Below, one piece after another: positions 12,101 to 64,000 of a stretch of DNA of 64,000 bases (position 1 is the first letter of the stretch; each line of letters opens with the position of its first letter). The translations under genes and the position numbers were made by a program. A model generated the notes under the pieces. The model was not told the DNA's origin and made no database searches. It saw only the letters and a list, made by a program, of their open reading frames with translations. The DNA comes from Rostratula benghalensis (Eukaryota > Chordata > Aves > Charadriiformes > Rostratulidae). Where the stretch lies: positions 1,410,564 to 1,474,563 of the forward strand of contig VXAI01000181.1 of NCBI GenBank assembly GCA_013399305.1, in the 5' to 3' direction.

Positions 12101-15100
12101 GTACACACAGAAGCAGCCATTCAAAAGTTCATGCCAACTGGGAACATCTGATACTCTCGTTTTGAAATTCTTCTTAAAATGTGCTATCTGAACTGTGTGT
12201 ACAGCACAATGAGGAACAGTGGACAGGAACCTGTGTTATCTGTACGTGCAGGAACTGCTGGTCACAGTTTAATGTCTTGCACAGTGACAAAAGTGTGTAA
12301 AATTCACAGTCCAGCAGTCAAATGGGAATTATCTTTTCTTAAGCTAATTACAACTCTTTAAAATTTCTGTGGCTGAATGTCACTTTGCAGCAAGTTCTCC
12401 AAATATCTTCTTCAAAGATTTTGTAAGTGACATTGTTTCAAACATGTAATATAGTAAATAAAGGGTATTTGAGAAACCCCTGTCCTAGACTTCACTATAT
12501 CCTGTAGAACTCACCTATATCACACGTGCCAGCATATCCAACAATTGTTATCCCCAGGCTTTGCCCATTCTTTTTTATAAGTTCAACATCATAGGTCTCA
12601 AAAAGGTTTTCCTATAGAAAAAAGCACAAGACAGCAAAAAAAAAAAAAAATCTCATAGGTTTCCAGTACCATTACAATATTGCAGGTTAATTAAATCTTC
12701 AGAAGTGAGCAGTGATTTTCTTTTTCCTCTTTTGGGAGGGATTGTATTTGAAAAAGAGATATACCCAAGATTAGCTGAAAATAAGGTGTCACCTGAAATC
12801 ATAAATTGCTTTTTAAATTCTTTCCTAATACTTTCTCCACACACCTGTCAGAAGTATAATATTTTTATTTTATGGAAAACAAAGAATGCTTGGGGGCCAT
12901 TTCCCTTTTGATTCCACTGCCTCTTGGTAACAACAAACGTCCCAGTCAATCTCACAAGACAACAGAAACCTTGAATGTCCTCAGAATGACTTCTTTCCCT
13001 TTCATATGTCAGTCCTGATAAACAGCGGAATGAACCCACTTGCTCATTCTACTGGACAGTTAAGAAGCAAGAAAACCTGGTATAAATACACAGTGTTATC
13101 ACATCACACATTGCTGTCAGAAAAAGTGATGATTATCTCTCTGTGTTACCACCTACTGAGGAAGCAAGGGACAGGAGGAAAGAGATTGCAAAAAGGGATG
13201 CCCTGATATGAAAGAAACTTTGTGTATATGAGGGAGGGACATCTCTACTACAGAAGCAGTTGCCTACTTAAATGCAAATACTGGAGACTGGGTAGGTGTT
13301 TGAGCTTATTGTTTGGTTTTGTGTTAGATCCCAAACCACAAAACCATTCCAACAGTCAATCTTACACACATCATCTTAACGAGCTTGATACGATCCTGTT
13401 CAGATTTGAACATTACCAAATTGCAAAGAGCACTGGAAGCCTCCAGGTTGTCTAAGGCAAGGGGAAGTAAAAGCCTCATTAGTTTGCATTCAATGAAAAT
13501 TACTTTTAAGACCTAAGGGGGAAGGGAAAGTATTCATTTGTCAATGCTTTACTGTTCAACTGATAAGACGACTTCTCATAACAAACAATACTTGAAAAGA
13601 GAAGCACATAACATGACCTGTTCTCTGAACCCTCCCTCTTCTTACTACAATTACCAAAAACACCATAAAAGGCTGAGATTACGATATGATCTGACCTTCC
13701 ACCGGAGAAGTCTATGGAAAAAGGTCCCCACAAAGCTGGCCTCAGGATATCTGCACTGCTCTGCCCTGACAAGTGAAAATCAAAACTGCAAGACAGAGCT
13801 CAAACAGGACACACTAAAGACATTGGTGATACCAAAGAGAAAAACAATCAAGCACACACATCTGGGATTGCAAGGGATAAATTAAAGTACATAAAGCTGT
13901 TTGTTTTCAGTAACCAGATACAGTCCAATGGGATCAAGAAGTAGATGATGATGAAAGTAAGGTCTGTTAAAGTGATGAAATCGAGAGGGATAGTGTCACT
14001 GCCAATGGCAAAAAATGGACCGGGAAATAGGAAAACATTTTTCAAGAAAATCAACAGAAGAGAAGTTTAATCAAATTGCTTGCCAAATATCAGCTTTGGA
14101 AGAACCTATATTAAAAGCAGGACAAACTTGTGGCCGTACTTATTTCACTTTTCACTGAAAGAGAAATGGATCTCTAGCTATCTCCTTTCTTATCACACAC
14201 ACCCGTCCCTCCACTAGCCAACTCATTGAGCTCATTAAATGCTTTCCAACTCTCTTGCTCCACAAGATGCTGATGGAGATGAAGATAAGCTTTGATGCTC
14301 CGTCACTTATCTTTAGGAGAAGGAACCAAAACAGTAAACAAGCCCATAGCAACATCTGAAATGAAGCTATGGCCTTGGGAGTTCTGCTATTTTGACAGTC
14401 AAAAGCCCTTCAGAGTGCTCCAGTGCTATGGAAAATTTCTCTAAGTAATCTAATTTTTGCATTCTACCAGTAAGAAGTGAAGACTGGAGAAATCAAAGTA
14501 GAGAATCCTAAGTACAGTCAGCACAAACAGGCCGCTACATTGCTATCCATATCTTGGTGAGTACAAATAACATGACAGGGTTTTTGTGCCCACGCACAGA
14601 CACAAGTAATTTCAGTTGTTCTCTACTATAGGAAATGTAAAGGAAATAAAATATTAATCCAAAACTGAAGAAAAATAACCATACATTAAAAATGTCTTTC
14701 TGCTGGTTTGCAAAAAAGAAAAAGAAAATATTTTCTATTCCAAAGCTCACAGCTAGTGAAAGCACTCAGGAACCAGAGAGAAATTAGATTATAGCAAAAC
14801 ATTCTGTTGTAAATCAGACACAAACTGAAAGGTGGACCATTAAAATCATCATTAAATTAATAAATACATTCAAACTAGCCAATATTCTTGACTTCAACAA
14901 ATCTCTCAACACCAGAAAGGGAGGGGGTTCTTCAAATCTACATATGAAGGTACTATTTAGCTTAGAAGACAATAGATACTTTCAGAAAGTAGATGAAATT
15001 GCAGTGGTGGGTTGTTTTCTCCTCTAAACTACAAAGCAGGAATAAGGAGGTCACTGAAAAGACATCCAGAAGGAATAACATTTTAGAAAAGCTGCAGCAT

Positions 15101-18100
15101 CTACAAAGTTTGGTCTCAATTAGTGACCAACAGGCCCACCTTGAGGTGGGGAAAAGAGAAAAACAGTACTTTATAGGGGAAACAAAACTATGACCGTGTC
15201 ATTTTTTTTCATGATATGGACCTTGGAAAATACGATACAGCTGGAAAAGAAGTGCTTTGTAATGATACCAATTCCCTTGGAAAGCCTTTTTTACAGTATT
15301 AGACAAGCCCACTTTTAATATTCCAGCTTTATGTATACAGGTTACTCCCTCCCACCTCTCTGCCACTCATGTTTCCTATTACACCAATGCCTCTTCTGAG
15401 GGGAGCACCTTGAGCAGGACCTGAAAAGCTTTAGCAACAGCTTCAGCCACCGGAGTCTTCCAGAGAGATGCAAGACACCAAGCAAATGGGTGCCTTTGCA
15501 GTAACCATGCCCAGTAAGTGAGCAGGTGAGTTTGTAACCACCTGACTGCTAGCTTGACCTCTAAAAAAATGGTGCTTCATTAAAAAACAAAATTAAATCT
15601 CTCTTCACTCATATTCAAAAAACTAGACAAGAAAGAAAAGGCTACTCAGATTCTACACCTAAATCTAAGCAGCACAGTAGTAGCAGATGGTACACAAGCA
15701 CAGCTTTGTTTATGTTTCGAGACCTACTGTACACTTAGTGTAGCATTTGTTGATTTTAATTACTCAAAACTGAAAAGAATGACTTCAAAAACAAGAGACT
15801 TTGATATGACCATGATAAGATTTGCTAAAACAAGTTTCAAAATTTTTAGATATATTTCCTATCACAGACAGTAGCGTAGACGATGAAAACATTACACTTA
15901 TGTTTCATAAAAAGATGGTTGTGCTGAATAATTCTGGTGTGGCTGCGGTGCTCTGGATTTCAGTCTAGGGAAATTCACAGTCAGGTTTTAAATCCACTTA
16001 CAAATGATTGATTAGCAAAAACATAATGAGCTAAGGAGGAGAACTAAAAGTACCATTTATTGATAACATTTATGGTCTTGGTAATTAAATTACCCACTCT
16101 GAAGTAAATTCTGTAAAGCTGGTCATTCTGATCCCAAGATTATAGGTATTAATAACACACAGGGAAGGGGGAAAAATTATAGAAGGTAGGGCTATAATAA
16201 TGACCACTTAAATACAAGCATATGATATCTGGAAACTCAAAAGAGGAGAAGCACTTCAGGTCTCAAGAACACTCTGTTCTCCTCCTTTCAGAAGCCACAA
16301 CATACTTAAAATGTCACAAGTAAACACCAGATACTTACGTTTTCATTTTGAAAGGAAGGTAACGCAGCGACCGGCCACCTCACGGGAGCTGGTGGAGTCC
16401 CCCTAATGTCACACTTTGGGTCTCTTGCAACGATCATCCTAACAGAATTCCCACAGTTTCTCAGCACTTGGGCAACCTGTTCACTGGTCATTCCTTGCAC
16501 GTTGGTCCCTCCAATCTGTAAGATGTGATCTCCTGTCCGGAGCCTCCCATCCTTCAAACAGAAATAAAATTGAAAAAGAAAAAAGAAAAAAAGTTTCCAG
16601 TCTATACTTAAAATATTTTTTCCATTCCAAAATGGAAACTGTGTAGAGGTGTCTTTTTGGCCATGAGAGCCAATGCAAGAAAATACCATAAAATTGACCA
16701 CCACAGCATCATACTAAATTATTTAAGGAACCATTTGTACAATCATGCACCCTTTTTTCCACAGTAGTTAACAGCAGTAAATCAACCTTTCCAAATCTGG
16801 GTAAGATACACAAATTGACTAGCACCATTGCTAAGAGAGAGTTTACTTTTCTCACTTAGGAGAAAACAGACAGCAACAACGTTTTATTATCTCACAGGTT
16901 GTTAGGTATTGCTGTTTCACAGAATGTTCCTCCTCGGATAGGGGTTGGAACAAAAAGCAGAGCATTTTGATTTAGGACTTTTTAGAGTTTTTCCTAATAC
17001 CTCTATATTGCCTGGCAATTCTTTTCTCATATGACTAGCTCCAGCCCAAGCAAGTAAATCCACTGAAGGTAACAAGACTCCACACAAGCCATTTTTTACA
17101 TGATAATTATGATTCATGACCTACATAATCATTTCTATTATAAGCAAGCATTCATAGGACCAAATCCTCAGCTGGTATTGATCAGCACAGTTCCTCCACC
17201 TCAGGTGCATTGATTCATAGAGCAATCATAGCAGAGTTATTCCCAGAACTAACCCAAACTCATTTACAAACTCATCCAATTTTAACATGTATATGTGCTC
17301 ATTATTTCACATGCTCTTAATGATGTCTCATTCAGCTGAGAATGATGTGGTGAGTTCTTAACTTACATACTTCATTTGTAGCCAAAACACTCTATTCCTT
17401 ACAGCAAAGCAGGTGTTACATAATTAAAAAATGTTCATTTATACATGACAGGTTCAGAAGGAGGCACTCAAGCAAAAGCCAACATTTTCCAGTAAAGCTC
17501 TCTGCATCTCCATCATTTCCATCCTATTCTAGAGGAAGTGCTTTAGCAAAAAGAATACTTTAGTACTCTCTTGAATGTTACCGGATCCTGTCTGCATTTG
17601 TTCCAGACCTCAGATATTGTAACCTGTCATGACCAACTGCACATTAAAAATCAAAATCTGGTTTGCTATTGCACGTGTTCTACTCCTGAAACACAGCAAC
17701 ACTTAGCACTGAATCTTTAAAGATTAGCAATCAAAGGTTGCAAACTGTACCTGTGAACCTTAAAGGATACCAGTAGCTTCAAAAGTCTTTGCCTTGATCC
17801 TAAGTGTCTCCTTGAAGTGGTCAGACCACAAGGCAGGGACCAAAACCCCTTTAAAATGAAACCCACTACAAATAGGACATTTTCCATCTATAAACTGAAT
17901 CTTGCAATGCAAGTGCTTCAATAGGGCAGATTCTCGTGCCTCACAACTCATTTAGAGAGTTTGTCCCTACAGATGTTGCCAAATGTGCCAAATTCCACTG
18001 AGGACGTGCAAATCCATTACGAGGATTTGTCCTCCCCCAGACTTAGCAAAGGCTTAAAATACCAAAAAGTATTGAAAATATTAGAAGGTTAGACAACTTT

Positions 18101-21100
18101 TCAGAATTTCTCCGTGTTCAACAACGTTCTACAGGCCAAATCATGTTAGAGAAACAACTTAATTCATATCAGGTGCTGACTTTTTCCTCAATCATACCTT
18201 CAACATATTTATTTATAAAGAATATGTTGGCATTTAGAGTCTGATGCTATCAGCTTCCTTTTGTTTAAGTGTATTAGTTTATTTTAAGATTGTCAAACCC
18301 AGTTAATTATCCTTTACAATCAAACAAGAAGTGGCATAATATAACAAATTACCCGATCTGCTAATCCCCCAGGAACAATCGTTCTTACAACTACTCCACT
18401 CGACTTTCCTCCTACAATCCCAAAGCCTAATCCTGAACCGTCGTTAATCAGCTCAACGTCTTCAACGTGGCCCCAGTGAATCTGCAATTAATAAAAACAG
18501 GAGATATTAATTTTGGTCACTCTCTAATGTTTCTCGCTTTCACGTGTACCAGGAACGATGAGCGTTAATCAAAGCAATATTCTCCCTCTACCCCACATAT
18601 TGGGGATCTGTTGGATTTTGCTCAGTCAGCTTCATTTCCTTATAAATATGCAGTGGGATTTCTCATCTGTTTTTAAACATATGCCTTGTCCTTCACTTTC
18701 AGGATAACAGGATACTAGGAAAAAGCTTGACAACGAAAAAGTAATTTTAAGATTTTCTTGCCAAAATGAAAGCTATCCTCTTGGTTTTTCATAAATCAAG
18801 AATACTGCAAACAACAGAGAGAAACAGAGGCGAGGAGCTAGCACTGGCCTGGTTTTCACTCAGTGTTGCCCAAATTCTTATTTCTGTTATTTCACTTACA
18901 CACTTTAAACACCAGCAGTACATGCTGAATTCATAGCACAGCGCAATATTCTGCCATACTGAACTGGAAGCCTGTTTCTAAGCTACATTGTACCATGACC
19001 TTATGTTCTACAAGACAATCTGAAAATAACAAAGCTGTTAAGCAACCCAAACCCAGCCAATGTTTCTGTCAGATTAATATCTCACAGAAACCAAAATGGA
19101 GCAAAGTAGGCAGATTTAAGTCTTCTGTGAATAAAAGATTTATTAGCATATTGAAAATCTTTGCCAAAGCCAGTTAAATATCATAAAAGGAGTTAAAGAC
19201 CCCCTGTAGAGATATATATTTGTATTTTATTTTGTTAGTCTGTTCAGTGCAGATCTTTCAATGAAAAAGCAGTTAAAGTTTAATTCTTTAAAATTTTCAG
19301 TGCAATAAACAATATTGATTATCCACTAAAACCTTCAGATTTCACTAGCTCTATAATAATCATGAGGGAAATAATTACTGACAATAAAGAAAAAGCACTG
19401 CTCTTAACCAGATTTTCATCAAAACCTTCTAGGATAATAAATTAAGATTCCAATCCTGAAAACCCTGGATTTAGGTGTGCAGTTCGACCAAATCCAGTCA
19501 AGCCACCTGGATTGTGTGGTTTGAACACGGCTGGAAGTTCAGCCCTACCTTGTTACATGTCCCAGTGACAATCTCTCCTTGTTCAAGAAAACAAAAGGGT
19601 TTGCAATCAATGAAATTTGCAGATTTAAAAAAAAAAAAAAAAAAAAAAGCCCTGATAAATAAACAAAGACAAGGCTTTTTGTTTTGAGCAGTTGAAGTTT
19701 AAATTGGTTGGGGTATTTCAAGCAGTGCTCATGATAGGTTATGTTTACACTCTTTTAAGATGTAATCAGAGCACCTTTAATTGCCAAGCACAAGTATGTT
19801 TTCAGCTGGGTACACTCATAAAATGCTTTACCCAGCCTATGCTGAACAGACCCTGCTGCTAAGAATATGTTGATCTACTAAAGCTTCTGCTATCCCATAA
19901 AAACCCAGGATCTATTTTATAACAACTTCATGCAGCTTTGCAATGGAAGCCTTACACTTATTGCATGATCAGTCTAAATGAAATGTCACCACATATAAAA
20001 CCTGATTAAAGAAAAAAGACAAATCCCCATATGTAAGGCTTGCTAACACAAACACTTACAACCACAGAAAAATATCCCGCATTACTTCAAAATCTGATTT
20101 TGACAGTATTACAACAACTCACAGTCTCAGGTGGATTTATATCACTTAATAAGACAGGCGAAGTTCTGCTGTTGCCTTGAACTGGCTCCCTGGCAACAAC
20201 CAGATGTAGGGATCCTGTGGATTGCTGGAGGAGGGCAATAGCTTGCTGATGGGAAATGTTCTGATCCAATGGGGTGCAATTAATGGCCAGTATGTGGTCA
20301 TTTTCCTTCAGTCTTTGATCCCTTAACAAAACATTAAAAGTAAGTTTCAAATGCAGCATAGTGGCTTCACACAACAGGCTTGTGTGATTTAAATACAAAC
20401 ATGCAAAACACACAGTTATGCAAGGTTAAATATTTATATATTGAATAAATCTGATTATTAAACTGTCTTCACCAACATACAAAGCACACACAATCCACAC
20501 TGCACTGAACTGCCCACCCCTATTTTTATCCAACTTTATCATGGTAGAGAAATTTGCTTAATTTTTTCCCCTTTGGTTTTATTCAAAACTCAATGAAATT
20601 CCCTCATTTTTTCTTGATGATACTGAATTACAGGACAGCATTTTTTGTTGTTGTTGTTTTATGATGAACTAGGAACTATTCTTCATTACGTTTAGCATCA
20701 CATGATACTGCTTCTAAGTACTCAGCACTCAGGGTAGGATATTGCTTGTATCGTTATTTAATCTCAAGATTGATGAGCTGCACATTTATATTTTACTCAA
20801 AGTTTACGGTATGAAGCTTTCTTCTAGCAATACACGGTTCAACTTATATAAGTTTCACAGTTAATTACCCTAGTGATGAATTTAGATTTGTGACAAGAGA
20901 GAAACCATCACTCATCTGCTTTGTTAAATATTCATTCTGAGCACGAGACCAAACTGTTACATAGACAGACACTGCCTTCAAAGCTCTGTAGGAATCCAAA
21001 AAAAGTCTCCAGGAGATCTTGTCTCAGAAGCAAAACGGGAAGCATGCTGGGGAAATTTATAAACTCCAAAACAATATAACTGTACATTTTGAACTTCCTT

Positions 21101-28400: not shown

Positions 28401-31400
28401 AGTGATTTCTTTTTGTGCAAGACGTTAAAACCACCCTCAGTATTTCTTTGTTCTCCTTTCTCGCAGGGGAGAAAAAAGAAAGCCCGTTATATTTTGAAGT
28501 AAACGGGTCCTCCTGGTGTGAGGGATCCCTGAAAAGACAAACTAATTTAAAGTTTTCAAGTAATGTGTAATTGAGGACAGGTCTCCAAGGCCAGCTTTTG
28601 GGTCCCAGAGAAATACAGAACTCTGTGTATTATTGAGCTGTTTACGTTTTGGGGCCCAAATATCTTATCATTAAACAATTTCCAAACACTGATGCACTGA
28701 GTGAGTCCAAGCAAGGCATAAACAGGCAGTTCCTAAATTAGGAGGTCCACTCCTAGAGGGAAATTTTGAAGGGATCCAAAACACTCCATGTCCTTAGCCC
28801 CATTCTCTGATTTTTACAGCCACTGATTTAGCTTATTCGTAGACAAAACTGCAAACCTCAGTTCAAAATTTATGTCACAACTCCCAAAATAACTGTAAAA
28901 TCATTGAGAAAATAATCATTTTCAGGAAGTTTAGTGTTTTCTAACACCAGATAAAAGCCCACACTCCAGCACAGCGTGCATCTGGGTTTTTGCTGTCTTC
29001 ACTTTGGAGAGCTCAACTCAACGCATCATAGGGAGCGGGAAAGTTTCATAAGGTTTTGTATGAAATCCTAAACTTGGATCTTCTTCAAAAGCAGACTGAG
29101 AAAAAAGGAATTCCCCCATGCTGATGCCAGCAGAGGTCATCAGAAGAGCTGAAAGGTTTAAGTCTTCCATTGCCATCACCCTCCTGCCAGATGCCTGCCA
29201 CTTGCACAGAGTCACAGGGTGCTCGACCTCAACACATCCCAAAGCCAGAGGGGAACACGACAGCCCTGGCAGTGGCCTTGACAAACACCTGCCCTCCACA
29301 AAGGGCTGCTGAAAGACAAAAATAAGGGGTTTCCTGCTGGGCTCTGGAGGAGGACAGGGTTTAGCCAGTGGAGATTCTTCTGCCCAGATCTCCCCACCCG
29401 TGTAGCAACTACAGTGGCTTCTGCCCTACGTCCTTCAGCTTGGGCTCCAACAACCTGTTTCCTTCCAGGGAAGTCCTGCCTCATGGGAGGCTCTCCCAGC
29501 TCAGTGTGGGACAATAAGCACCTCAATGTACAAGTGCTGTAACTGCTGCTGTTTTTCAAAGGCTTTGAACAGGGCCAAACTGAGCAGCCTGCCATGGGAA
29601 CAGCCAAGGCTGCATCCCAATCCAAAGTCACCTTTCTACACTAATGCGGTTGTAATTTTTCCTGGCTGATACGGTGCATATCGTCTTCCTCATCAGGGAG
29701 ATCTCTGACTTGGAAAATGTCAGTCCACAGAGTTTAAAATTTGATAAAGGCAAAAGAAGAGCAAACCAGCATTTTTTAGTGTGATTTTAATCCTAAATTG
29801 CCCTAACACAGCATCACCTGTAACTTCAAATAATAAATATTACTGTTTACAAGCCATCAAGCAACTATGTACTGTGAAAAAAAAACACTATTCTAACACA
29901 TATTTTGCTGTCCAACACGTTATGCTCAGTTTCCCATCCTGGTAACTTACAGAATAATTCACTCCAACCAAACTTAGCACATGCACACCTTTGAGATGAA
30001 ACCACCAAAACCTGGTGTTCTGTGTAATGCTGCAGTATTTATAAAAAGTGCTATCGAGCACGTGCTGAGTGCTCCAGGCTCCTGAAAAAAAGTAAACAAC
30101 CAAACAGTGCTTTGAGGACCTAAGCACAAATACACTACACGGGGTTAAGCTGGTCAAAGCTAAATATTGCTAAATATATATTAAAAAAAATTTTAAAAAA
30201 TACTCCACGGGCAATCTGAGGGTGTCCTGTTGTTCCCTATGATTAGTGACCATGAGAAGAGGAAAGCAAAACAAAAAATAACTCTGCTTCTGTGATAACC
30301 AGTCTCTCTGCAAATCAAGAGGAGTCTTACTCACTCTCAAGGCATGCTAACATTTAACAAGCAGAACCTGAATTCCTGCGGACTTCAGCCTCGAGGGAAG
30401 CGCCGGTGTGGGTTCTCTGATGTCTAATGGAAGGGTGAGCTCACGCCAAAGCCATTCTCCATGGAGCAATAATATGGTCTCAGAAACCTATTTGCACAAA
30501 GCTTGAGGAAAACTTGTTTCTGAGATCTAAATGTTGTCATATGCTACTGAAATTAGCCAATAAATCCTGGAATTACTAAGATGACAGCATACATGATTAA
30601 CAAATCACTTCATGGGGAAGGAGTGTTATTAGATATGGAGCCATAGTGAATTTCTTCAAGAATTTACACAGAACATAAAAGAACTGGTTTCTTATTTAAC
30701 CCCCCCTTACATGAAGAAAAAAAATCCTACTTCATTAGGAAGCTCTGAGTTGACAGGCACTGACAAAACGTGCTGCCAAGGGCACATTCCCTCCCTTGCG
30801 CCTCCTCTCAAGCAATGGACACTGTTTGACAACAACTATGAGGGCTCCTACACCCCAGAGCACCTTCTACCGCCATCAGGAGTCATGCAGCTCTCCCCAG
30901 CCTTCACCGGGACCCTCAGGGAGCCGCTGACACCCTCGTAGAAGCCTCGAGGGGCTCCGAGGCAGCCAAGTGCAGGCCAGGGTGGTGATGACACCAAGGG
31001 GGAGCCAGGAGATGGAAGGAAACACATTTCCAGAACATCCATTCCAAGACCAAGCACTAGCCAGTCTGAAGAAGGACTTAAACTCCTCCAGAAGAACCCT
31101 CACCACCATCTGACCCTACCTACCCCTTCCCACATACCACACCCGCCGGCTGCCGGGGCGTCGAAGGCAGCAAGGCCTCTCCTTCAGGGCAGGGCCTGGG
31201 GCGGGGGGGGGGAGCCCTCGGCCCCACCGCCTTCTCTACCGAAAGTCGCGCCTACGCCGGCCTGAGGGAACCGGGGGCCGAGGCGGGCAGGGAGAAGTGG
31301 GGACAGCGGCGAGCACCCCCTCAGCGCCGGGGGCGCTGCTGAGGCGGAGGGACGGGGCGAGGGGCCGGTACCTGCGGGCGGGAGGCGGCGGCGGTCGGAG

Positions 31401-31426
31401 CGGCGCGATGGCCGCCGGCTCTCACC
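25462..31426 (-). other. 5'-most PATJ intron region (5' UTR intron)
   Basis: Sequence between the ATG exon and the CpG island presumed to hold the first exon. Contains the N gap at 26495-26619 and A/T tracts near 26890 and 28180. Additional untranslated exons cannot be ruled out; none is visible by similarity. Confidence 0.5.
26495..26619. other. assembly gap (125 N)
   Basis: Run of N flanked by TA-rich sequence on the left and an A-tract on the right, consistent with an unresolved AT-rich simple repeat in the PATJ 5' intron. Confidence 0.99.
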
Positions 31427-31780
31427 TGGGCGGAAGCGGGAAGCGGGGGTGGGGAGGACGATCCCGCCTCACCTGCGGCGCAGGAAGCCGGGGCGGCGCG
31501 GCGGGAGAGCCGCCTCCCGGGGGACGGCCGGGCCGCATCCCTGCGGCGGGGGCGGGAGCGGCGGCCGCCGGCAGCCCGCGCCCGGGGAGGCACGTAGCGC
31601 CGGGCCGGAGGGAGAAGCCCCCGCTGGCGGCAAACCACCTCTTGCCGGCTCGGGGACCTCTGGCTGAGCGGTACGAGCCCTCGGGTGCTGTGAGGTGAAC
31701 GGGGCAGGAGGCTCGGAGAAGGGGACGAGGTGTACGGGACCCCCGCAGGTCAAGGCCCCCGGGGCTTGAGCGTGTGGACG
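31140..31780 (-). promoter_or_regulatory. PATJ: CpG island, probable PATJ promoter and untranslated first exon
   Basis: GC-rich and dense in CpG against an AT-rich background. On the minus strand there are two good splice donors inside it: CCGCCCAG|GTGAGAG (exon edge 31426) and CGCCGCAG|GTGAGG (exon edge 31473). Either could end a non-coding PATJ first exon joined to the ATG exon near 25.46 kb. Assignment to PATJ is inferred from strand and position; no TATA box was noticed. Open frames on both strands here are by-products of GC richness. Confidence 0.65.
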
Positions 31781-31799
31781 GGACCCTCGGTGGCCACAG

Positions 31800-33540
31800 G
31801 GAGTAGCAGCACCCGCTCTGTGAAACGCAGAGCTTATAAACTGAGCCGATTTCTCAGGTGATCCTAAGCTGCCCACGTACTTACAAATCACAGGCCTAGA
31901 AAGACATACACATCAACATAGCTACCAAACTGAGGGAGAAAAGTAGGTGTCAACTCCATGGAAAAGCTTTATTTGTACTCACTTGCAGTATATCTGTGTC
32001 CAAACATGGATTCAGGGCTGGTTTGGACTCGGATTCCCACCGAGGCCTCGGCAGCACAACCCTCACCGCTTCCAGAGAAGGGAATGGCCAGAGCCCTTGG
32101 AGGATGGCGTTAAGGGATTGTATCGCTTTCCCCATGGAGCGTGGAACTGGTGATGGACATACACCTTTCCCAGCACTGCTCCCGATGGCATCCGAAGCAC
32201 AGCTCCTCGCCTGGGGTGGCTAAAGTCCCTCCAGCAAAGATTTCCTTCTGCTACTCACAAAGTACTGAGCAGGCACCATTTTAGTTGAAGCTGATTGTGG
32301 GAACTGCAGATGCTTTTCTACCTGTGAAACCTGTATGGTAGTTGCTTTCAGATTTTTTTTTTAAAGAGATATACATGCCCATGAGATTTACATGCCCATA
32401 AAGTGGTCAAACAAAACTCTCCAGAAATAATTTTTACTCTGTTGTGCTGTTTCAGTGGCTTATTTGCTGCAGATCTTACACAGCCCTGCTAGTTGCAGAG
32501 GATAAGGGCTACAAAAGGTTTGGCGATTAAATTTACCTCAAAACTTTGGATTGATTTCCCCGTGGTCTGGTGCCGGTTCTGTTGTAGTAAGCAACCGTGG
32601 TTGCACTAGAGCACGCAGCACAGAATTACAGAATTGTTTTGGGTGGAGGAGACCTTTAAGGTGATGCAGTCCGACTGTTAACCCAGCACTGCCATGTTAC
32701 CACTAAACCATGTCCCTCAGCACCACTACGTGTCTTTTAAATACCTCCAGGGATGGTGACTCAACATGCTAAGAACATTTCATCCTCTTTTTTAAAATTT
32801 CAGATTCGCGATGCCTAACTTGTTGGTCCTTGCTCTCGCTGATGATTAACGTAGCACTCGTGCGAGGTGACAATTGTCCTGACAGTGACGAACAGCCTGC
32901 CGTGTTATTTATCCATCCGAGGGACACCTTGCAGACAGGAGAGACCAGACACCCTCCCGGTCACACCTCAGTTTTGATCTCGGAGGGGTGAGTTCACCAC
33001 GGAGCACACCCCGGGCCTGGCCTTTCCCTTCCCTTCCCTCTCGCTGAAAGGAATATCAATTTTTATTTGTATACTTTGCCTGCCCAGCTCCAGACTGCCG
33101 GTTTAATTTTCACACGTCACCCAAAAAAAGCTGTTAGATGGCAATATTTCACATGGCTGGCTGAGCTCTCTCTGTCAGCATTTTAAAATCCACTTTTTAA
33201 CTGATTCTTTGAATGTCTGAGCCTTGAACAAACCTTCTGTTGGGACTGACACGACTCGCCTGTAAGTCACCATTCCTCCCAAAATAACCAATAAAACCAA
33301 AAGACTTCCAGAAGGGCTGGGGAATTACAACATTCTCTTAAATACCGCACCGTCAAACCCAAATGCTAGAAAAACATGAAATAACCATACTGGAAGCAAG
33401 CAAAGATTGGTAATCACCTCTAAATACCTTATGAAGAGCAAATGCTGATTAAGATAAAAGCTTGCCTACTCTAGGCATTTAGTATTCATTTTAAAAAATA
33501 AATAGCATTTTTAACAGTACACCACCCGAGAGCGAAAGTC
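31800..33540. other. spacer between the two CpG islands
   Basis: About 1.7 kb of ordinary composition separating the PATJ and TM2D1 islands. It contains one CR1 tail fragment and nothing else recognised. Confidence 0.55.
32621..32772 (+). mobile_element. CR1 LINE 3'-end fragment
   Basis: Starts CAGAATTACAGAATTGTTTT with GGAGACCTTTAAG after it, and ends at ATACCTCCAGGGATGGTGAC, the hallmark order of avian CR1 tails. Diverged and truncated. Edges are approximate. Confidence 0.75.
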
Positions 33541-33615
33541 TACGCACAGCGCCTCAGGTCCGACATCTTAGGTAAGGGCAGGTGGGCGCCATCCCGCCAG
33601 GTGCTGGTGGCGGGC

Positions 33616-33626
33616 GCCGCCATCTT
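33616..33626 (+). promoter_or_regulatory. YY1-type motif
   Basis: GCCGCCATCTT, the reverse complement of the YY1 consensus AAGATGGCGGC. A second, GCGCCATCTT, lies at 33672-33681. Such motifs commonly sit near the start sites of CpG-island promoters; binding here is inferred. Confidence 0.55.
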
Positions 33627-33950
33627 TATTCAGGGCAGGAGCCCGCCGGTCCCCCTGCCGGGGCCGTGCCGGCGCCATCTTGAATAAGGGCACGCTCTGC
33701 CCTCCGCGCTAACCATTAGCCGCCTCAGAAGCCATATTTGCTGAGGTCAACTCCCCCGCCCCAAATAAAAAAAAACCCAAACAAACCAAACCAGAAATTC
33801 CCAAACCAGCCCCCTCAGCAGTCTACGAACAACTCGCGGGGCCTGCACCCCGCTCCTCCCGGCAGGCAGGCCGGCTTCCCCCCGCGCCGCGGGGCCGCTC
33901 CTCCCCGCCGGAGCCGGCGGGTCAGCTGACGGCGGCGGGAGGTTTTCATC

Positions 33951-34111
33951 ATGGCCGCCCGGCCGGGGCAGCCGCTGGCGGCGGGGCTGGGGAGGTGGAG
34001 AGGCGCGGCGGAAGCCCAGATCCTGCTTCTCCTCTGCTTCGCGGGCGCAGCTGTGGAGGGAGCGGTGGGCGCGGAGCCACCGCTCAAGTGCGACGAGCTG
34101 AGGCTGGGGCA
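33951..34111 (+). CDS. TM2D1: TM2D1 coding exon 1 (signal peptide)
   Basis: Start ATG in context CATCATGGCC. Encodes the signal peptide and LKCDELRLG, matching the known LKC-DL-VG segment. It ends in GGGGCA with two bases of codon 54; the intron begins ATATCCT, with no usable GT donor nearby, so the exon end is set by the U12 site and the family text GQY. Confidence 0.92.
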
Positions 34112-37100
34112 ATATCCTGAGAGCGGCCGGGGCCGGGGCGGGCGGCGGGGACTCGGTTGCTATGGCGATGGGGCCCGGCAGGGCGGAGGGGCCCGTGGCG
34201 CCTCGGCCCGGGCTCCCTTTGCCTGAGGGGAGGCCGCTTGCCCGGCCGCCTCGGGTGGAGGGGAAGGGGTGAGGTGCCTGGCAAGGAGGGGAAAGCATCA
34301 GGGAAGGAGCTCCGAGGGGATCTCGGCTGGAAGAAGCAGGAGAGGGCAGCAGCGTATGGTTATTTTGGGGGTGGTTCAAGTGTGTGCCTTTGTGCAGGTG
34401 TGGGGTATCTCTGATTTTTCAAAAAGAACACCCCGTGGGATGAGAGCTCCCCACTCCCCCGCGCTTCCACCTTCTTATTTTTTTTTTTTTGCAGGGCACT
34501 AGAGTAGACGTGGTGGCTTTGCAAAAGGTTGGGCTTTTGCCCACAGTCGGAAGCAGTGGGGCTCAGGTGTTACAGACCGGAGCTGTGAGGCTCCTGGCTC
34601 TCCACAGGCGCCTTGGGCCTTCCCTGAAAAATGTTTGTTGATGGTGGCTGACAGTTATTGATGTAGCTGCTGATCAAAAGTGTCAGGAAAGCAAATCTTG
34701 GAAAAGCTAACTTCATCTCTTGCTTTGCTTGGCCGTGGAAGTTCAGGCCTCTGGAAATAAGTTCCTGCACTGGTTTTTTCTAGTCCAAATTTTTGGCATT
34801 TCAGGTGTTCTTTGAATTTTGTATGTTACTGTAAAGTTTATCTTCTCAACCAAATGCCTCAGTTTGAAGGTACTCTGATATTGAAATAAGGGAGGAAGAC
34901 CAGATTAGGAGTGCTGCCTTGTTGCCTTCCAATATAGAGGCTGTGACCGATAAATACTGTAGTTCCTTTACATAGTGCAGACTGCAGCTCTAATTAAACG
35001 TGGAGCTTATGCAATATATTGGTGTATTAAATTGGATTAGCAGCTTTGCTGTATGGTAATGTGCTGTTCCTATTTTGGGGGATGGGTACGAAGGAAAACT
35101 AATGTCAAGGTGCATCTTAAATCCTCGGGTTTTAAAGAGAATAAATCACTGTTACACCTGTTGGGGTGTTTCATATGAAAAATGTTTTCCTCAATTACCT
35201 GAACATATATGTGCGATGAGCCTAAAATAGACAATAGTACACAAGAACCAATGAATTGTACAAATCACACAGCATATGGTAAGGATTTCCAACTTCTAAC
35301 ATGTATTGACAGTAGCTACATTTTTCCAAGGAAGTATTTAATTTATGCATTTGTGTAACTGCTAAATGAGCTTTATAAAATATGGGATTAGTAATATCAT
35401 TAGTATGAAAGCCTAAAACACTTGTGTGGATTGGATGCTTTACTGAAAATGAATAAATGTGTTGTCTCTGATTGGCATATTTATAAGTGAGATTTCTGGT
35501 AAATCTCTTCTATGTATGTTATATCCTCTAGGCTCTGTCATGTGCTACTGCGATTACAACAAACCCCCCTGTCGTACTGATTTTGCATATACTTGGAAGA
35601 ATTGACATGTGACGGAACAGCCTTCAAAATCTTCCTTTTTCTAAAAAAATATATATTTTTTTTAAGAAAATATGGTGCCTTCCATCAGGAATTTTTGGTG
35701 CCATGAGGCTCTGTTTCGAAAACGTATTTATTTTGATGTTAAGTGCTAAAGCACTTTTGGAGTACAACAGGACAATGCTTAAATTGATCATTGGTTCACT
35801 ACATATGTTTAGTTTTTCTGATGTTCTCAGCCATTGTGTTAGGTAATAGCAAAAATGTTCTCACCTGTGTTAGATAATAGCACAAGAGTTTTGCTTTATG
35901 TGCACTCATTTCAGTTCATGTCTATGCTTGTTGTCTTTTGTTTTCCATAAATACGGAATTATTTTCTTCACTGGGATACTCAGGGATAGTGAAGGTTTTC
36001 CAAATGCTTAATATGAGACTGGATTGAAGTATTCTCCAAAGTGGATCCTTTTTTAAGTTACTCAGTCCTTTACATCATGTCCCTGATTATAAATGTCCAG
36101 TCAGTGAACAGAAAGAGTATTCTGTAGTTTGATATTGATCACAACTCAAATTTTTGGTTGTCTAACCAGTTACCACATGATTCATCTTAGTATACTATAA
36201 ATTTGAACAGGAGATTAGCTATCTATAAGCTACCTTCTGGATTGTGCTTGAAATACTACTGTTTTTGAGCATTTTTCTGGGATCCATCACGCAAACAAAT
36301 AGGGGTTTAATTCAAAGCATCCAAGAAGTCTCATTGAGTTGAAGATTTCAAGTCTTAATGGATGACATTGACAGGAAAATTGTGTTCTTTTTGTATATAA
36401 ATACATTTAAACTGCCGTGGATTTCTTCTTTCACAATGCCTTTTTTAATTTTTTTAACAAGTAAGTAGATTTTTTGTAATTGTCTTAAATAAGGCACTTT
36501 GATGAGTAACATCCATGGTAGGACTTCATAGCAGATAAGTCCAGACGCAGCTCCTATTTTTTATCTGCTGCTGTTGGCCCCAAGTTGTTGTTGTTGGGTT
36601 TTGTTTGGTTTTTTTTTTTTTGTGGTCCCTATGCAATACGGATAGATATTTAAAAGAATTCAAATCCTAGTCACCTTGTTTGTAGGTAGCTTGGAAAATC
36701 TGGAAAGAAATGTTGAACCTGTCTTGTTGGAACCAACCAAGAGAACTTCCGAAACTGATAGCAAGTGGGTAAAGGACTGCTATATTTCCCTTTAATACAA
36801 CAGACTTCAGCACTGGAGAGTGACAAATATCTGGTAATACATTGCAAGCTTTTAGCAGATGTCACTTTCTGGTGGGATTTCCACTTCAGCTCTTTTAAGA
36901 GTCAAGCCTTAGCTTAGAAAATAATAAGAGTAATTTGGGTTGAAATAGACCTGAGGAAGTCCCATAGTCCAGCCTCCTGCTCAAAGCAGCGTTGGTATTG
37001 AATTCAGACCAGGTTGCTCAGGGCTTTGTGCAGTGGGATTTTGAAAACCTCCAAGGATGGTGCTGGTACCACCTCTCTGGGCAGCTTTTTCCAACATTTG

Positions 37101-56797: not shown

Positions 56798-56892
56798 TGG
56801 TCTGGTCAGAATTAAAAAAAATAAAATAAAAAAAAAAAAAGATANTGGTCTGGTCAGAATTAAAAAAAATAAAATAAAATAAAAAAAAGATA
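56798..56892. repeat. 47-base direct duplication around a single N
   Basis: A 47-base block beginning TGGTCTGGTCAGAATT and ending GATA occurs at 56798-56844 and again at 56846-56892, separated only by N at 56845, with small differences inside the A-rich part. This is the pattern of two contig ends that overlap but were joined without merging. Confidence 0.85.
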
Positions 56893-57423: not shown

Positions 57424-58535
57424 GAGAATCTCCCGCTCCTCTCACCAGGCTCGGAGGAGCGGATTTATTTATGTTGTGTTTTTTTTTTAATAGGAACGTG
57501 GTTTGCCCAAGGTGACGTGGCTTTTCTCTGCTACCGGGAGGAAACGGTTAATGCTTTACAGACCACGCACCTGAATCTTAAAGCCTTCTCCAAGCACACT
57601 TGAATTTCTGCAGGAGGAGCATCGCGCCTCTGCGTCGGGGTCTACGTCGTTTCGCTCCCTGTATCTGGAGATGGGGGGCAATAGTTAAACTCCAAAATAA
57701 TTACAGCTCTTCTCTTTCCAGCCTCAGAGCCCTGATGTGTTTGCTGTAGATTTAACAGTTTACCAGGCAGCTGGAACTGTTGACTGATAATTGCTGCGAG
57801 TTTCTGATCCTCCAGAAGAAGTGAAGAGCCTCCTCCGTCCTCCGCCTATTGTTCCTACAGTTTGCTTTGCCGAAATTATTGAAATGAGGGTTATCGACAC
57901 TGCGCGGAGGGCTTGAGCCTCAGGTGCTGGGAATTAATGTTGCCTGTTTAATTACATCAGTTTGCAGCCTGATCTGCTGTCTGTCCTCTGTCACACAGCG
58001 TTGCTTAAAGCGAAATCGCAACCTCTCGTCAAACCGGGCGTGGGGCTGAGTGAGACTGGGACAAATGGAGGCGACTGGAAAAATTGCTCTTCTCCCAGCC
58101 AGGTCCAGCTGCCGTTTTGATTTCTCTCCACCTTGGTGGCTGTCTCTGGACCTTTGCAGCGTTCCTCCTGCCATATGCTATTGCCAAGTCGTTAGTTATG
58201 TATGACACCTAATGAAGCCCCAAACCATGGTGTTCTCTGTCATGACTCAGGACGCCTGGACCCCTGGTGCTTCTGGACAAGAAGCAGCACTCCTTGAACC
58301 CTTCCCAGCTCCAGCTGCAGTGCAGAACAGGCTGGAAGCTGCATCTGTGCCTGTTGGTGAGATCCCAGGGAAGGGCAGTCACAGCAGATACACACTGATG
58401 CCAGGCCCCACTGGTGGAAATCCCCTGGAGATGTGGGGAGCAGGAGGGAGCCTGCATGGAGCTCCTGGAGATGCAGATGGAGTGATGATGCTTCCCATCT
58501 TGTCTGCAGGAGCAGCAGCGTGTCAGACCATTTTC

Positions 58536-58742
58536 TCAGAATCACAAGATTGTAGGGGCTGGAATGGCACTTTGGAGATCATCTAGTCCAACCCCACTCC
58601 CAAAGCAGCCTCACCCAGAGTAGGTTGCACAGGAATGTGTTTGAATGTCTCCAGGGACAGAGACTCCACCACCTCTCTGGGCAGCCTCTTCCAGAGCTCT
58701 GCCACCCTCACAGTAACAAAGTTTTTCCTCATGTTCATATTA
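58536..58742 (+). mobile_element. CR1 LINE 3'-end fragment
   Basis: Reads AGAATCACAAGATTGTAGGG, then GATCATCTAGTCCAACCCC, TCTCCAGGGACAGAGACTCC and ACCACCTCTCTGGGCAGCC, the standard CR1 tail order. It is the best preserved CR1 piece in the window. Confidence 0.92.
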
Positions 58743-61700
58743 CCAGTCAGCTACATCCCAATGTCTGAAGAAACACCTGGGGCTGTCTTTCCTCCTGCTG
58801 CCCACAGAGCTGGTAGCACCCAAAAAATGCTGCTGACCCCAAAGGTCATTGAAACAAGTGCTGCCTGCAGCAGCCCAGGCTGGAGATCGATGGGGTGGCT
58901 TGACTTCAAGTTCTTGGGTTAGCTCAGCAGCCACCAGCAAGACAAACTCTTGGTAATCTTATTACTAATGCCCCCACTGCTCTTGGGAGAGCTTGTACAG
59001 AACTCTTCTGCAGTTTGCACACCCATAAAAGCCACCCAGAATGCAGTGAGGTGAGGAAGAAACACCATGCATTTTCATCATATTGGTATTTCTGGCACAA
59101 TTTGCATCGTGACTATGGCCTCAGTGAGGAGGAGCAATAAATACCTTCTGCAAAGCTCATATTGCGATGGATGGGAGAGGAAACAGTGACCGGAGGGGTG
59201 TCACATTCTGGAAACCCGACCTGGAAAGAAGGATCCACAATTACCCAGATGGGTAAGGGAGTCTCCAGGTCTTAGCAAAGCCCTTTGATTATCATAACAA
59301 GAAAACGGGTGCCAAACAGTTTTAAAGCATCCCGTGTATTATCGATGATTTTGCTGTTGATAGGAAGAATTCAAAGGGATGCTATTAGCATTCTGGGCAG
59401 AGAGGGAGCAGATCTATAGCATGGCCCTCAATAAATACATTGCTGCAGTAAACTTCTTTAGCACTTTGCAATTCACATCTGATCTCTGCTGACCTTTTTT
59501 TTTTTTTTGCTCCTAATTAAACCTTTAGCTTGCAAATGAGCCGTTTCCTACATCAAACTGGTATATGGCAAAGGAAGAAATTCTACCTGCGATTTATAGG
59601 AGTTGCTGGCGACCTAACTGTCTATCACAACCTTTTCTAATTGATCTCTCTTTGAATTAAATTTGACCAATTACTTTCTCCTGGGTGAACAATGATGACA
59701 CTATCCTTAAAAGCTATTGTGCCGATGGCAGCAGAGGAAGCTGGGTGGATTGGAAGATAACAATCTGTTTTGTGCACATAGTTGAGAATGATGAAGGCCA
59801 ACTGCCTCCAGCACCCAAAACCTCTGGTCATCTCAGCCAGCTGTTTTCCCAGAGTGGTGTGTGTTTGAAGAGACTGATTTTGAGCGGGTGTGCGTGGAGA
59901 TGAGTTAGACAGCTGCTCTTGTGAGCTCTACTCATGTTCTCACCTCCAAGCAGAGGAGATGCAAGCCTGCCATCACGCCTGCCTTGGTTTTGGAGCTGGA
60001 TTGCCAAATCAACCTCTTCCAGGTCACTCATGTCCTACAGTCCTCTTCCAGTGCAGTGGTGTGTCAGCCTTTAAGGTCCTTCTCCAGCGTACCATCCCAG
60101 AAGAAATCCCCCAGATCATGAACCAGCTGGGCCTCCACTGGTCTGTCTCATGATGAGCCCTTAGAAAAGGGAATGAAATATCTGAGATGGGCCTAACAGC
60201 ACGATGTTGAACTGCTGACCTTAAGAGTTCAAACACATCCCTGGCTGCACTGCATAGTTCTTCATGTGTTCCAATGAATCCTTCCCTGAAGCTGAACCAT
60301 GGGAGTTTGGCTGGAGCATGTCCTGTGGCAGCAGGGAAGGACCCTTGGCTTGATCAGACAGCAAGAACCCAGAGCTGCACCAGCCGCCAGCAACACGAAA
60401 GGAATTAAATCAGTCCAGTCCATTAAAAAGTCATGAGTCTCACTTCAAAATCCTTTTCAGAAGTATATTTTATCTGATTTTCCTTCGTCTCCTGGCTCCA
60501 GAGCGTGCATTTTCAAGCATTGCTTCTACAGCTGAAATGATGAGAAATTTCCTTGCCTTTAGTAGGAAGCCAGGAGGCTCCTGTCCACTCCAGATTGCCC
60601 ATGCCCCTGCAGCTCCACAAGTGTCATCAGGATGCAGGATTTCACACCACCGTTGCCCCTCTGCCTGCCCCATAGCAAGGGCTGTCAGCATTTCCAGTGG
60701 TATCCAGTGTGGGTGCAAATGCCACCACAGCCAGCACCCTACTGCTGTGTCCTCTGTGGGTAGCAGAGGGCACATGTTGGCTGGCAGAAGAGCTCTCCAT
60801 CCCTCACCCTATGCCTTTTAAAGACTTGCCCTAAACTATTTCCTCCTCCTTTGCATTGGACAGTAACTAAGATAATTTCTTGCTAGCTTTCCTGCTCAGC
60901 TTCTAGGGTGACCCTTCCAAAATCTCACAGGAAATATGGTCTTCTTCTGCAGGAGCATGGGACATCATCACCTGCTCTTTCCCAACCTTCCTCTGGAAAG
61001 AAAACAAAGAAAACAAAAAAAACCCCATCCTAAACACCTCCCAGGCAGTGCAAAAATGTTATTTAGAAGTAAGAAAAACTTCCCCAGACTCCAGCTCTGT
61101 GATGTGGGCTCTCAAGCAAGGGAAGTATCTCAGCTGAGAAAATGCTGGGGAAATGGCTTTTCCTTCATCTAAGTGGGTTGCAGGAGGGCTCCGGTGTGGG
61201 GTGCTAAGGGAAGAGGGGACCTTTAGGAAGATTTACATGTGGAATCTTTGTATGGTCCCTCCCGCCCATTTTTAATAAGGAAAAACGACTCACTTCCCAG
61301 CGTGGAAAAACAGAGGCTACTTGGCACCCCTGGGGATGGGGCAAGGGAGTCCGTGGGTTCCCCAAGTGAGGTGCAGGTTTCCTAAATAAATAATCACCGT
61401 GTGGTCCATTGGGGTGTCCCTCAAGCCACAGAATTCTTCTTTGGGCTTCCCTTGGCATCCCCAGCCAGGCCAGAAGGTGCCTGTGCCCACCTTCTCCGGT
61501 GTGTCTCAGGCTGCATCCCCATCACTCCCCACATGAGCCTTGTCGGCAGTGGCCTCAGTTCAGGAGGTTAAAAGTTATTAATTGAAAATCAATGGAAATA
61601 AAAAGAGTCCCATCTGCCGCAGCACACAACTCACTCCCCTCCTCCCCTGCCTCCCCGACATCCTTGCCCGCACTGCAGGAAAGGCAGCCGCAGCGCCCGG

Positions 61701-61950: not shown

Positions 61951-61961
61951 GTGGACTGGAA

Positions 61962-62024
61962 AGAAAGGAAGAAAGAGGGGAAGGAAGGAAGGAAGGAAGG
62001 AAGGAAGGAAGGAAGGAAGGAAGG
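61962..62024 (+). repeat. (GGAA)n microsatellite, cut by the gap
   Basis: Starts as imperfect GAAAGGAAGAAAG purine sequence and becomes a pure four-base repeat from about 61980 up to the N run. The first kept bases after the gap (62062-62072 and 62083-62090) are still GGAA repeat, so the microsatellite spans the gap. Confidence 0.95.
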
Positions 62025-62054
62025 NNNNNNNNNNNNNNNNNNNNNNNNNNNNNN
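62025..62054. other. assembly gap (30 N)
   Basis: Gap inside the GGAA microsatellite. The 41-base periodic T pattern begins directly at its right edge. Confidence 0.99.
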
Positions 62055-63828
62055 TTTTTTTGAAGGAAGGAATTTTTTTTTTAAGGAAGGTTTTTTTTTT
62101 TTAAGAGTGTTCCTTTTTTTTTTTACTAACTTTTTTTTTTTTTCAAATCAGAGCTTTTTTTTTTTGCTTAAATTTTTTTTTTTTTTTAATTACTATTTTT
62201 TTTTTTTAAGTGATTTTTTTTTTTTAGGAATGACCTTTTTTTTTTTTGGGCTCATTTTTTTTTTTTCAGCAGCACATTTTTTTTTTTCTTACGTGTTTTT
62301 TTTTTTTAAATTAAAGTATTTTTTTTTTTATGCATGTTTTTTTTTTTTCTGAGGGACCCTTTTTTTTTTCTTCCCTGTTTTTTTTTTTTCCTGGAGCTGT
62401 TTTTTTTTTTAAGAGCCATTTTTTTTTTTTGACCAAACAGGTTTTTTTTTTGAGAGACCTTTTTTTTTTTTAAAAAATGACTTTTTTTTTTTAGTTAACA
62501 TTTTTTTTTTTTTCATCCATGGTTTTTTTTTTTAAGGGAAATTTTTTTTTTTTATTTCCACCAGTTTTTTTTTTAGTGAGAGTTTTTTTTTTTTTTGCCC
62601 TCACCTTTTTTTTTTAAAATCTGTTTTTTTTTTTTTCCTTGCAGCTTTTTTTTTTTTGTCCCCCTTTTTTTTTTTTGGCCTGACTCCTTTTTTTTTTTAC
62701 ATATTTTTTTTTTTTTTGTAGGTCACCCTTTTTTTTTTAACAGCGTTTTTTTTTTTTTAAATAACCAAATTTTTTTTTTAGGAAAATTTTTTTTTTTTTC
62801 AGAAGACTAATTTTTTTTTTTGGAAAATTTTTTTTTTTTTATAATGCCACCTTTTTTTTTTTCAGCGGGTTTTTTTTTTTTTCGTTACTGCCTTTTTTTT
62901 TTCTGAGATCTTTTTTTTTTTTAGCAAAATCAGTTTTTTTTTTCTTTCCTCTTTTTTTTTTTTTTGTAAGGGTCTTTTTTTTTTAGAATGAGTTTTTTTT
63001 TTTTTTAAAAAAATCTTTTTTTTTTGATATTTGTTTTTTTTTTTTACATCTGGCTTTTTTTTTTTTGCACCCAGTTTTTTTTTTTTAACTGGAAATCTTT
63101 TTTTTTTAGAATTATTTTTTTTTTTTTGTTGAAAAAGATTTTTTTTTTCTAGTCCATTTTTTTTTTTTACACTGCCAAGTTTTTTTTTTAACCATGTTTT
63201 TTTTTTTTTTATCTACCTGTTTTTTTTTTTCTTTCATGTTTTTTTTTTTTGCCACTTTTTTTTTTTTTTTTTTCTAATGTTTTTTTTTTTTTTCAGTGAA
63301 TATTTTTTTTTTTATATCCATTTTTTTTTTTTTCTAGGCAGGGTTTTTTTTTTAGCTCCACTTTTTTTTTTTTCAGGTTTGCTCTTTTTTTTTTGAGCAG
63401 ACTTTTTTTTTTTTCCTCCCCAGCCTTTTTTTTTTGACCCTTTTTTTTTTTTTTTCCTTTAGAGACTTTTTTTTTTCCATCCCCTTTTTTTTTTTTACAG
63501 AAAATAATTTTTTTTTTCTCTGTCCTTTTTTTTTTTTGCAGGGTTTTGTTTTTTTTTTGCCAGGCCTTTTTTTTTTTTTGAAGAGGAGCTTTTTTTTTTC
63601 CTGGCTCTTTTTTTTTTTTCACCAAACGCTTTTTTTTTTTCATCTGGCTTTTTTTTTTTTTAATTGCAACATTTTTTTTTTCCACACGGTTTTTTTTTTT
63701 TATATTTCATGATTTTTTTTTTACATAATCTTTTTTTTTTTTTTTTAGCAAACTTTTTTTTTTGGACAGCCTTTTTTTTTTTTCATCTTGTTTCTTTTTT
63801 TTTTTGCTGCAGTTTTTTTTTTTTTGAG

Positions 63829-63867
<39 letters not shown>

Positions 63868-64000
63868 TTTTTTTTATTTTTTTTTTGTCGAGACTTTTTT
63901 TTTTTTTGCAGAAGTAATTTTTTTTTTATAATATTTTTTTTTTTTTTCACATGGCTGCTTTTTTTTTTGGTTAAAATTTTTTTTTTTTAGGCAAGCAAGT
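62055..64000. repeat. 41-base periodic poly-T pattern over otherwise unique sequence
   Basis: From the gap to the window end, T blocks recur in a fixed frame: an 11-base kept window starts at 62062 + 41k for k = 0 to 47, followed by 10 T, an 8-base kept window and 12 T. I checked most of these starts and found no slippage. The kept windows are all different and of ordinary composition. No gene can be called; the long open frames here only read poly-Phe or poly-Lys. Most likely a technical overwrite (see findings). Confidence 0.95.

Follow-up and report, generated by a model that had tools for sequence, protein, structure and literature searches.

A 41-base frame of T blocks fills an assembly contig and is almost certainly a software overwrite of ordinary vertebrate DNA

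The window, that is, the whole stretch of 64,000 bases that was analysed, corresponds to C389:1410564-1474563, where C389 coordinates are those of the scaffold, in a genome of 1,086,608,298 bases and 1298 records; the genome size and the CR1-like repeats are consistent with a bird. On the minus strand, exon-like open reading frames at window positions 16306-16713 and 20087-20425 have as their best PDB matches PDZ-domain entries of InaD-like protein (2dlu, E 2.4e-25; 2db5, E 1.4e-23), and they are probably part of a gene in the window that we take to be PATJ-like. A GC-rich stretch at 30001-35000 (0.51-0.58 in 2-kb windows) is possibly the CpG-rich start of this minus-strand gene, and an Rfam scan of positions 1-62024 gave zero matches at the gathering threshold. 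At 56798-56892, two near-identical 48-base tandem copies meet at a single N (56845), a duplicate that may represent a small assembly join. A CR1-like repeat lies on the minus strand at 58514-58789, and the clean sequence ends in a plus-strand GGAA microsatellite (61961-62024), which is followed by a 30-base N assembly gap (62025-62054). The remaining positions, 62055-64000, belong to a contig overwritten with T, which would lie upstream of the PATJ-like gene; this placement has no bearing on the artefact.

On the plus strand from 62055 to 64000, every 41 bases comprise (i) 11 kept bases, (ii) T10, (iii) 8 kept bases, and (iv) T12, the 11-base kept segments beginning at 62062, 62103, and so on to 63989. 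This frame, with its period of 41, had been set out in a preliminary description of the sequence and proved exact: all 1042 of the 1042 frame positions outside the kept segments are T, with zero exceptions, and the 904 kept positions comprise A 277, T 230, C 211, and G 186. The kept segments are unrelated to one another, as had also been claimed, with a mean pairwise identity of 0.253 for the 48 11-mers and 0.246 for the 47 8-mers, compared with 0.255 expected from composition. The autocorrelation of 62055-64000, on which the period had been staked, was highest at a lag of 41 (0.669), with a lag of 82 next (0.650), and Tandem Repeats Finder likewise returned periods of 41 and 82. Furthermore, a detector of periodic single-letter frames was positive in 4/4 400-base pieces of 62055-64000, and it found such a frame in 0/153 N-free 400-base pieces of the clean positions 1-62024. 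A chance origin of the 41-base frame is negligible.

The T frame crosses the window edge and ends at C389:1483501. The affected contig is C389:1472618-1483501 (window coordinates 62055 to 72938; 10,884 bases), and it contains 265 complete 41-base units without slip, T at 5838 of 5838 overwritten positions, and 5046 kept positions. While the preliminary description was right that the register never slips, its span of about 1.93 kb was too short, as the frame fills the entire contig. The left border is the 30-base gap at 62025-62054, and the right border is a 28,726-base N gap (C389:1483502-1512227), beyond which the next 20 kb (L011 and L012) showed no frame in any of 48 N-free 400-base pieces.

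A second overwritten stretch, to the left of the window at C389:1369093-1405502 (36,410 bases; loci L033, L013, L010, L009, and L006), carries A with a period of 30, of which 16 bases are kept and 14 are A. Over the 28,447 of its 36,410 bases that were read, that is, all but C389:1372601-1380563, A was present at 13,279 of 13,279 masked positions, and the mask phase was identical on either side of C389:1372601-1380563, so that the A stretch is likely a single contig. Its kept letters in C389:1380564-1405502 had a GC content of 0.42 and a CpG o/e of 0.24. The stretch is bordered by N295 and N5061; both ends of the T contig and of the A stretch are thus N gaps, which indicates that the affected unit is an assembly unit and not a biological one. 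The 62-kb stretch separating the two (window 1-62024) is without a frame, and the presence of a different mask on its far side speaks strongly against a biological structure tied to this locus. This differently masked A stretch and the true extent of the T frame are additions to the preliminary description. The A mask keeps register with scaffold base 1 (kept where the 1-based coordinate modulo 30 is 1-16), which can be chance given the 30 phases available; the T mask is out of that register (first kept base modulo 41 = 28). Neither mask is in register with the ends of its own stretch, and no anchor for the masks could be inferred from the two registers.

In the T contig, the kept positions are vertebrate-like in composition and CpG depletion, close to the clean window: CpG o/e is 0.26, TpA 0.63, and GC 0.49, with a CpG o/e of 0.31 and a TpA of 0.68 in window 1-62024. 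Some dinucleotide ratios are unlike the clean window, such as those of CC (1.40 in the T contig vs 1.14) and GG (1.35 vs 1.19). In the first units (62062-62104), the letters left unmasked continue the four-base register of the GGAA microsatellite, with AA at 62071-62072, 62083-62084, and 62103-62104; the distances of 12 and 20 are multiples of four, and the register thus spans the first T10 and T12 blocks in multiples of four.

We also compared the kept positions with unmasked DNA by sliding three-unit pieces of the T contig (57 kept positions), gapless and on both strands, along an unmasked pool of 106,221 bases of C389 (window 1-62024, L007, L008, L011, L012, and the clean part of L033). With the T blocks left in place, the top matches were 50, 46, 46, 45, and 42 of 57, whereas the control maxima were 36/57 for reversed sequence and 36/57 with the T blocks excised. 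The control maximum was exceeded by 13 of 263 overlapping pieces, which lie at five places of the contig. The A stretch gave top in-place matches of 57, 54, 52, 52, and 50 of 64, the controls reaching 39 (reversed) and 39 (A blocks excised); here 13 of 414 pieces scored above control, and they lie at four places. Relatives above control were absent from this small unmasked pool for 250/263 (T) and 401/414 (A) pieces. With window 1-62024 alone as the pool, the top match was 38 vs 34 in controls, which is too weak by itself. When the genome was searched for one 35-base piece of the A stretch in unmasked form, only the piece itself came up (1 forward, 0 reverse, 0 control). The CR1-like repeat at 58514-58789 matches kept positions in place, and the top five matches of each stretch resemble copies of the CR1 family. 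In the printed best matches, the matched repeat letters fall in the kept segments at their original spacing. As the kept letters, wherever the pool holds a relative, align only with blocks left in place, the T blocks replaced bases and were not inserted among them. From the sequence comparison, in-place replacement is direct at nine places, and elsewhere it would be extended by the unbroken frame.

The preliminary description had proposed ordinary sequence in which T was written over 22 positions in each 41, and this proposal is supported by the GGAA register, the composition, and the in-place CR1-like alignments. We are almost certain that the T frame is a data artefact, namely positional overwriting of ordinary vertebrate DNA by software, and not biology. 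The marks of a positional overwrite were found throughout, in (i) the use of one letter with no slip, (ii) the alignment at original spacing, and (iii) the borders at assembly units. To produce it, a program step would have left 19 of 41 positions intact and given the remaining 22 a single letter, with length and register unchanged; the fixed letter would have been written into whole contigs, in a pattern that differs between contigs. We infer that this letter was probably A in each contig's own orientation, and that it reads as T here since the contig was placed reversed. Because common 2-bit encodings give A the code zero, the likely event would be that a positional AND mask was applied, or that positions of a packed contig or buffer were never written and stayed zero-filled; this zero-code idea draws on two contigs only. 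The occurrence of two unlike masks in neighbouring contigs, odd for a single bug, is a point against such a mechanism.

Known systems offer partial likenesses. The spaced-seed (positional) masking of k-mer tools likewise repeats, at a constant period, a fixed pattern in which some positions are kept and others ignored, but there the mask serves hashing and is not known to be written to the output, unlike here. Zero-filled or unwritten 2-bit packed positions would also turn missing letters into one fixed base. While faults in 2-bit packed words are expected at 4, 16, or 32 bases, which differ from the periods of 30 and 41, the run of 16 kept bases in the A stretch has the size of one 32-bit word. 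The CR1 retrotransposons of birds come in because the kept letters match CR1-like copies at exact spacing in several places; they are the underlying sequence that served as a ruler, and not the maker of the T frame. We identified no software with exactly such overwriting and no tool with these two patterns, and within the reach of a narrowly worded literature search, nothing relevant to a published description of such an artefact came up.

How widespread such masks are was judged from probes. We placed 79 short probes of 160-600 bases, 37 of them in C389 and the other 42 spread over 26 further scaffolds, in which the detectable periods were 8-69 (600 bases), 8-44 (400 bases), and 10-54 (160 bases), such that a longer period could escape. 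Among these, 68 were clean with letters, 10 consisted entirely of N, and the last one (L013) falls inside the A stretch; further affected contigs may exist. Nine of the ten all-N probes (L027, L031, L032, L054, L074, L082, L086, L088, L089, and L090) lie within the first 5.2 kb of their scaffold, which points to large N stretches near scaffold starts.

We see an even chance that the deposited assembly itself includes contigs with about half of their bases silently overwritten by contig-specific positional masks. A plausible if somewhat doubtful rival is that the overwrite is confined to the genome copy analysed here, through file corruption, data preparation, or a planted control, and is absent from the public assembly. 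Two masked stretches with differing masks flank this one window while 68/79 probes are clean, and the contig-specific periods resemble chosen parameters, all of which would suit an event in the copy; on the other hand, the masks extend far beyond the window (36.4 kb to the left and 8.9 kb to the right) and their ends coincide exactly with assembly gaps, as expected if the assembly contig is the affected unit. Stretches deliberately withheld from this copy, moreover, are stated to appear as N and not as A or T.

The remaining rivals concern the overwriting itself. Duplication of a 41-base, T-tract-bearing unit into a tandem array would account for the autocorrelation peak at 41 and for the Tandem Repeats Finder periods of 41 and 82, but we hold it to be extremely improbable: the kept segments resemble one another only at the level of chance (0.253 and 0.246 vs 0.255), they are at five places parts of longer genomic repeats in place, and zero T blocks lie off the frame. 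The units share no sequence by descent, as those of a tandem repeat (satellite) array would, and the in-place alignments refute the duplication array. An insertion of T blocks between genomic pieces, whether by biology or by an assembler, deserves equally little credence; we found no support for it, and the match with excised blocks equals that of the reversed control (36 vs 36 of 57; 39 vs 39 of 64), whereas blocks left in place reach 50/57 and 57/64, which refutes insertion at the places open to comparison. Weakest of all, to the point of being virtually discounted, is the idea that the T tracts are real DNA, phased at roughly two turns of the helix and under selection for curvature or for the exclusion of nucleosomes. 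The mean spacing of 20.5 bases pointed out in the preliminary description would suit it, but we reject it on the exact lengths over 265 complete units, the start and stop at assembly gaps, the nearby stretch with another period and letter, and the way in which the frame runs straight through copies of repeats; the early judgement that real curved DNA was much less likely was thus borne out.

In the reading of the T frame as positional overwriting, about 47 kb of the scaffold (36,410 + 10,884 bases) are sequence-like yet about half overwritten. Masked stretches of this kind would yield false signals of low complexity, composition, and alignment. If they are in the public record, the corruption escapes gap-based quality control, since every letter is a valid base, and recurrence would be possible in other assemblies from the same pipeline. 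Biologically, the T frame is of no importance, and its relevance lies in data quality.
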